From the NCBI GenBank assembly GCA_030950365.1, contig JAUZRQ010000002.1, positions 1-64,000 of the forward strand: DNA of 64,000 nt. The letters are read 5' to 3'. The notes below the pieces were generated by a model. The model made no database searches, was not told the origin of the DNA, and was given only the letters and a program-made list of their open reading frames with translations. Below, in pieces: positions 2,770 to 3,019 of the stretch (position 1 is the first letter of the stretch; every line of letters starts with the position of its first letter). Both the position numbers and the translations under genes were made by a program. Source of the DNA: Candidatus Zhuqueibacterota bacterium. GTDB lineage: Bacteria > Zhuqueibacterota > Zhuqueibacteria > Zhuqueibacterales > Geothermadaptataceae.

Positions 2770-2859
2770 AAAGCCGTCTCTCCTCACATCACGACGACAT
2801 TTCGAGTCACCGATATTTCGTTGACGCTTCCACCGAATTATCGTTTCTTTTTTTGATAT

Positions 2860-2882
2860 TTGTCGAGCCAATATAACGACAA
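2860..2882. promoter_or_regulatory. Candidate activator-binding dyad upstream of katG
   Basis: TTGTCG (2860-2865) and CGACAA (2877-2882) form a perfect 6-bp inverted repeat with an 11-bp spacer, about 40 bp upstream of the -24 element of katG and about 90 bp upstream of the activator start. Enhancer-binding proteins with Fis-type HTH domains bind dyads at such positions. This is a sequence-only guess; a short dyad can occur by chance. Confidence 0.35.
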
Positions 2883-2921
2883 TGTATTGAAAAGTCAACA
2901 TTTATGTAATTCCCATTTTTC

Positions 2922-2936
2922 TGGCACTATTATTGC
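2922..2936 (+). promoter_or_regulatory. Sigma-54 (-24/-12) promoter of katG
   Basis: The sequence TGGCACTATTATTGC has the full -24 TGGCAC and -12 TTGC elements with the invariant GG-to-GC spacing of the sigma-54 consensus (TGGCACG-N4-TTGC). It reads towards katG; a start about 12 bp after the GC would leave a leader of about 70 nt. It lies in the divergent region shared with a sigma-54 activator gene, which strongly supports the call. Confidence 0.85.
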
Positions 2937-3019
2937 GATTGTTTTGGTCCCAGCCTGAATAATAGAGGCGAAATCCATAATTGGATGAAAATGCACCATT
3001 TTTATCAAGGAGGCCTTAC

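Follow-up and report, generated by a model that had tools for sequence, protein, structure and literature searches.

A putative sigma-54 switch with a NorR-like activator at the katG–ferritin locus of a Zhuqueibacterota bacterium

Catalase-peroxidase genes are usually under OxyR, PerR or FurA-type regulators, and in the PerR–katG and OxyR–katG circuits a repressor or a LysR activator works at sigma-70-type promoters. The locus described here shares with these circuits, pairs of which occur in the same phylum, a regulator that adjoins katG, but differs from them in having a sigma-54 promoter and an ATP-driven activator. In this respect it resembles the NO-sensing NorR–norVW system of Escherichia coli, in which NorR uses three enhancer sites (PMC2941729, PMC4601167) and the ligands of the iron site are listed as R75, D96, D99, C113 and D131 (and H111) (PMC4601167). 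The two systems have in common the GAF–AAA+–HTH architecture, the divergent target, three sites alike in number and layout, the -24/-12 promoter and most of the iron-site residues; they differ in the target, which is katG and a ferritin-like gene rather than an NO reductase, and in the activator, which has neither R75 nor R81, scores below the NorR cut-off and falls in a separate clade. Sigma-54 of E. coli binds a site within metF, upstream of katG (PMC4591121); RpoN screening gives katG as the neighbouring gene (PMC8743547). That site, unlike ours, is intragenic, is listed 459 from katG and has no adjacent activator; we do not take it as evidence of katG control, and neither report shows control by an adjacent activator. 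No paper joining katG, RpoN and a sigma-54-dependent promoter was found among the open-access papers searched.

We suggest, with a probability of about 0.8, that in the window (the whole 64,000-nucleotide stretch that was analysed) the activator, three sites and a sigma-54 promoter together drive katG and the ferritin-like gene, standing in for the Fur/PerR or OxyR-type control of katG that relatives appear to use. Comparison establishes the promoter, sites, domains, gene order and change of neighbouring regulator; binding, operon transcription, iron and the signal are inferred. The GAF–AAA+–Fis activator would bind three CGA-N4-TCG sites; a signal reaching the GAF domain would lead the AAA+ ring to remodel the sigma-54 polymerase held at the promoter, and both genes would be transcribed as a single operon ending at the terminator-like hairpin (Table 1). 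Most likely there is a mononuclear non-haem iron within the GAF domain, in a pocket resembling that of NorR, and the domain may sense NO, peroxide or the iron state. If this is correct, the switch would make katG induction strictly dependent on the activator and on ATP, a new wiring for a common peroxide and iron stress defence.

Table 1. Features of the katG–ferritin locus (positions are those of the window)
Feature	Position	Strand	Basis
Sigma-54 activator (bEBP), 508 aa, GAF–AAA+–Fis	1243–2769	-	Domain search; top curated model NorR NF003451
GAF residues at NorR iron-site equivalents: R69/D71 (R75 region), D96, Y98, E99, H108, C110, D128; extra C132	2368–2568	-	Alignment
Candidate activator site 1, CGACATTTCG	2795–2804		Position and spacing same in G073 and G072
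Candidate activator site 2, CGATATTTCG, 16 bases from site 1	2811–2820		Conserved in G073 and G072
Candidate activator site 3, CGAATTATCG, 23 bases from site 2	2834–2843		Conserved in G073 and G072
Sigma-70-like promoter candidate for the activator gene, TTGACT-17-TATATT	2870–2898	-	Weak
-24/-12 sigma-54 promoter, TGGCACTATTATTGC	2922–2936	+	Sequence match and conservation
katG, catalase-peroxidase, 734 aa	3020–5224	+	NCBIfam cat_per_HPI, above the curated cut-off
Ferritin-like gene, 150 aa, Dps-like (DPSL) by nearest relatives	5365–5817	+	Domain search; sequence relatives
Intrinsic-terminator-like hairpin	5872–5901	+	Hairpin search

The region between the divergent genes (2770–3019) contains TGGCACTATTATTGC, the sole exact match to TGGCAC-N5-TTGC in the 64 kb window, which confirms the near-perfect -24/-12 promoter aimed at katG that the original prediction had described. 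Its TGG-N10-GC core, with the fixed spacing of such promoters, lies upstream of katG and is retained in G073, a genome of the same genus. Shuffling the intergenic sequence by dinucleotides 5,000 times gave an exact match at a frequency of 0.0002, and the genome as a whole has 25 exact matches, many of them just upstream of genes, against 7 for a reversed control pattern. The sigma-70-like candidate for the activator gene is rated weak because only 2 such sites were found against 1.2 expected. No full match to the IHF consensus between the boxes and the promoter is present in the window. Elsewhere in the same genome, two apparent small heat-shock genes, identified by reading the sequence (L196 and L216), have exact -24/-12 sites 80–84 bases upstream, which suggests that sigma-54 control of stress genes may be wider than katG.

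Upstream of the promoter lie the three 10-base boxes, starting at 2795, 2811 and 2834. Their 16/23 spacing is identical in three genomes of two genera, with some of the box copies imperfect, and the distance from the start of the last box to the start of the -24 element is 88, 89 and 90 bases in the three. None of 5,000 shuffles per sequence reproduced the triple, a motif first spotted in these same sequences. The boxes are candidate sites near the target promoter, conserved in three genomes, as expected for an enhancer-binding protein, and would match the NorR arrangement of three enhancer sites ahead of a divergent sigma-54 operon. The conserved dyad that had been placed near 2860–2882 fared less well: TTGTCG-N11-CGACAA is present at about 2861–2883, but in the window genome only among the three compared, and we rejected it as a binding site in favour of the conserved sites at 2795–2843.

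The orthologous loci were sought among 82 genomes of the phylum, 26 of which have katG. Besides the window genome (G000), the activator adjoins katG only in G073, which keeps the boxes, the promoter and the order of activator, katG and ferritin-like gene. Searching with only the GAF domain brought out one further ortholog, 66% identical, in G072 (another genus of the same family); the activator is known from three genomes in all, in two of them with katG. Loss of the -24/-12 boxes from close relatives, which the original prediction had named as evidence against itself, was not seen: the boxes are kept in G073 (TGGCATCATTCTTGC, core intact with one change from the window, the remaining intergenic region having diverged) and nearly kept in G072 (TGGCACATATCTTGA, near-consensus, with the -12 GC changed to GA). 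In G072, which has no katG, the activator ortholog faces the ferritin-like gene; activator, sites and ferritin thus stay together. The G072 promoter may be weaker or decayed, given the GA at -12 and the distance of about 490 bases to the ferritin start, a stretch that is partly a palindromic repeat shared with G071. Matches to a katG remnant in this leader were at chance level and were rejected. A scan of contigs for wider activator homologs gave 80 loci, mainly AAA+ matches and none near katG or ferritin, and these too were set aside.

Two other accounts of the promoter have to be weighed against this conservation. The -24/-12 match could be due to chance, with katG driven by an unrecognised sigma-70 promoter: a consensus match by itself does not prove function, and the 25 genomic matches include some inside genes. 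Yet the promoter is conserved in relatives at fixed spacing to the three boxes, and no sigma-70-like site was found toward katG; we regard chance as very improbable. Only a little more credible is that the promoter is real but is served by another sigma-54 activator, the divergent one acting elsewhere. The genome encodes about 31 such proteins, which are able to act from a distance; against this, two genera keep the activator gene together with the sites and the promoter, and among 18 exact CGAAATATCG sites across the genome, that at the katG locus alone is accompanied by further boxes and a sigma-54 promoter, so the others were rejected as further targets. One RpoN is encoded in the window genome, and RpoN is also encoded in G071 and G072; none was found in G073, whose draft assembly of 400 contigs is 91% complete. 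A second sigma-54 activator gene is present in the window at 27883–28383 (L013).

A strong ribosome-binding sequence, AAGGAGG, precedes the katG start at 3020. Domain and relatives bear out the predicted ferritin-like gene downstream, the product of which reaches 69 bits against a curated DPS cut-off of 158. Its closest solved relatives are the DPSL/mini-bacterioferritin proteins (PDB 2clb and 2vzb; nearest 2clb at 8.9e-12), from which it differs in being shorter and having no cysteine. A terminator-like hairpin was found after the ferritin-like gene and none between it and katG, which fits an operon.

The activator consists of a GAF domain (about 15–155), a sigma-54 AAA+ domain (189–356) with Walker A and a GAFTGA loop (263–268) that is intact, as the original prediction had it, and a Fis-type HTH (about 461–499). 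The two cysteines of the GAF domain, which the prediction also mentioned, are C110 and C132, both conserved in all three orthologs. We aligned the GAF domain and those of its two orthologs with six NorR proteins. All three orthologs keep D96, Y98, H111, C113 and D131 (NorR numbering) and have D or E at position 99; the place of R75 is taken by aspartate, an arginine lying two positions before it, and R81 is absent, which leaves the full NorR iron-site set (R75, D96, D99, C113, D131 and H111) incomplete. The iron-site signature H-x-C...T-x-D is found in 9/9 NorR proteins, 3/3 orthologs and 0/93 other sigma-54 activators, some of the last being without a GAF domain. NorR NF003451 is the best curated model for the activator, at 397 bits below its cut-off of 476, and in the tree the activator and NorR form separate clades, each at 100%, with deep branches between them that lack resolution. 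From its sequence, the activator probably works like NorR, with which it shares most of the residues and the three sites, but its membership of that group is doubtful, as it falls below the cut-off and lacks R75. It offers a naturally occurring variation on the NorR iron site, with which one could ask which residues determine the signal.

What replaced what is suggested by the regulators next to katG elsewhere. Reading of upstream frames together with Pfam identified Fur/PerR-family genes upstream of katG at nine loci of the phylum (L035, L036, L037, L039, L041, L042, L048, L050 and L055), and four others (L043, L045, L046 and L047) have a divergent LysR gene beside katG. The one of these four regulators that was scanned, that of L043, is LysR-type and scores best, though under the cut-off, with OxyR. 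Within the same family as the window genome, G069 has a Fur-family–ferritin–katG cluster. No Fur-family protein was detected in the draft genomes G000, G073, G071 and G072; this is a strong but not final indication of absence in the activator lineages, as the genomes are drafts, above all G071 (83% complete). In the window genome no protein exceeded the OxyR cut-off, and the one LysR-type candidate (91 bits against 329) was rejected. The absence of a detectable Fur-family gene and of an above-cut-off OxyR supports the earlier proposal that katG is controlled by something other than PerR or OxyR. It seems that the lineage no longer has the regulators that commonly govern the response to peroxide and iron (Fur/PerR, OxyR), and our best reading is that a regulator replacement placed the peroxide and iron-defence operon under sigma-54; if true, this would show the rewiring of a core stress circuit after Fur-family loss. 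Fur-family proteins were also undetected in the drafts G074–G078, an unusual absence common to two neighbouring families of one order.

The signal is harder to assign. We give a little under an even chance to the view that the activator is a sensor of peroxide or of surplus iron, relying on the iron site or the cysteines of its GAF domain and doing the work of PerR. It would suit the targets, a catalase-peroxidase and an iron-storage protein, the Fur-family genes beside katG in relatives (including the G069 cluster) and their apparent absence from the activator lineages, and the conserved C110 and C132; on the other side, no peroxide-sensing GAF-type sigma-54 activator was found in the papers searched, and sequence alone cannot reveal sensing. 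NO is about as plausible a signal, given that most residues of the NorR iron site are present in the GAF domain. A NorR-type NO sensor, with katG and ferritin serving in defence against NO or peroxynitrite instead of in a peroxide response, is favoured by the NorR model, which fits the activator better than any other curated model and does so along almost its whole length, by the kept iron-site residues and a signature that the other activators scanned do not have, and by three sites that precede one divergent operon as in the published NorR layout (PMC2941729, PMC4601167). It accords poorly with the score under the cut-off, the separate clade, an operon without an NO-detoxifying gene and the aspartate in place of R75, the ligand proposed as displaced by NO, and we hold this assignment to be possible but somewhat doubtful. 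To return to peroxide and iron, it is possible, though in our view less likely than not, that the protein represents an undescribed class of sigma-54 activators with a modified NorR-type iron site, which would sense peroxide or iron and would have taken over from PerR the control of catalase and iron storage once all Fur-family regulators had gone from the lineage.

Palindromic repeats were seen in the ferritin leaders of G071 and G072 (GTCATTCCGG...CCGGAATGAC; L164:12101-12590 and L167:1-251) and at the start of the window (CGTCATTGCGAG...CTCGCGATGACG; 1–130); these are probably dispersed repeat elements.
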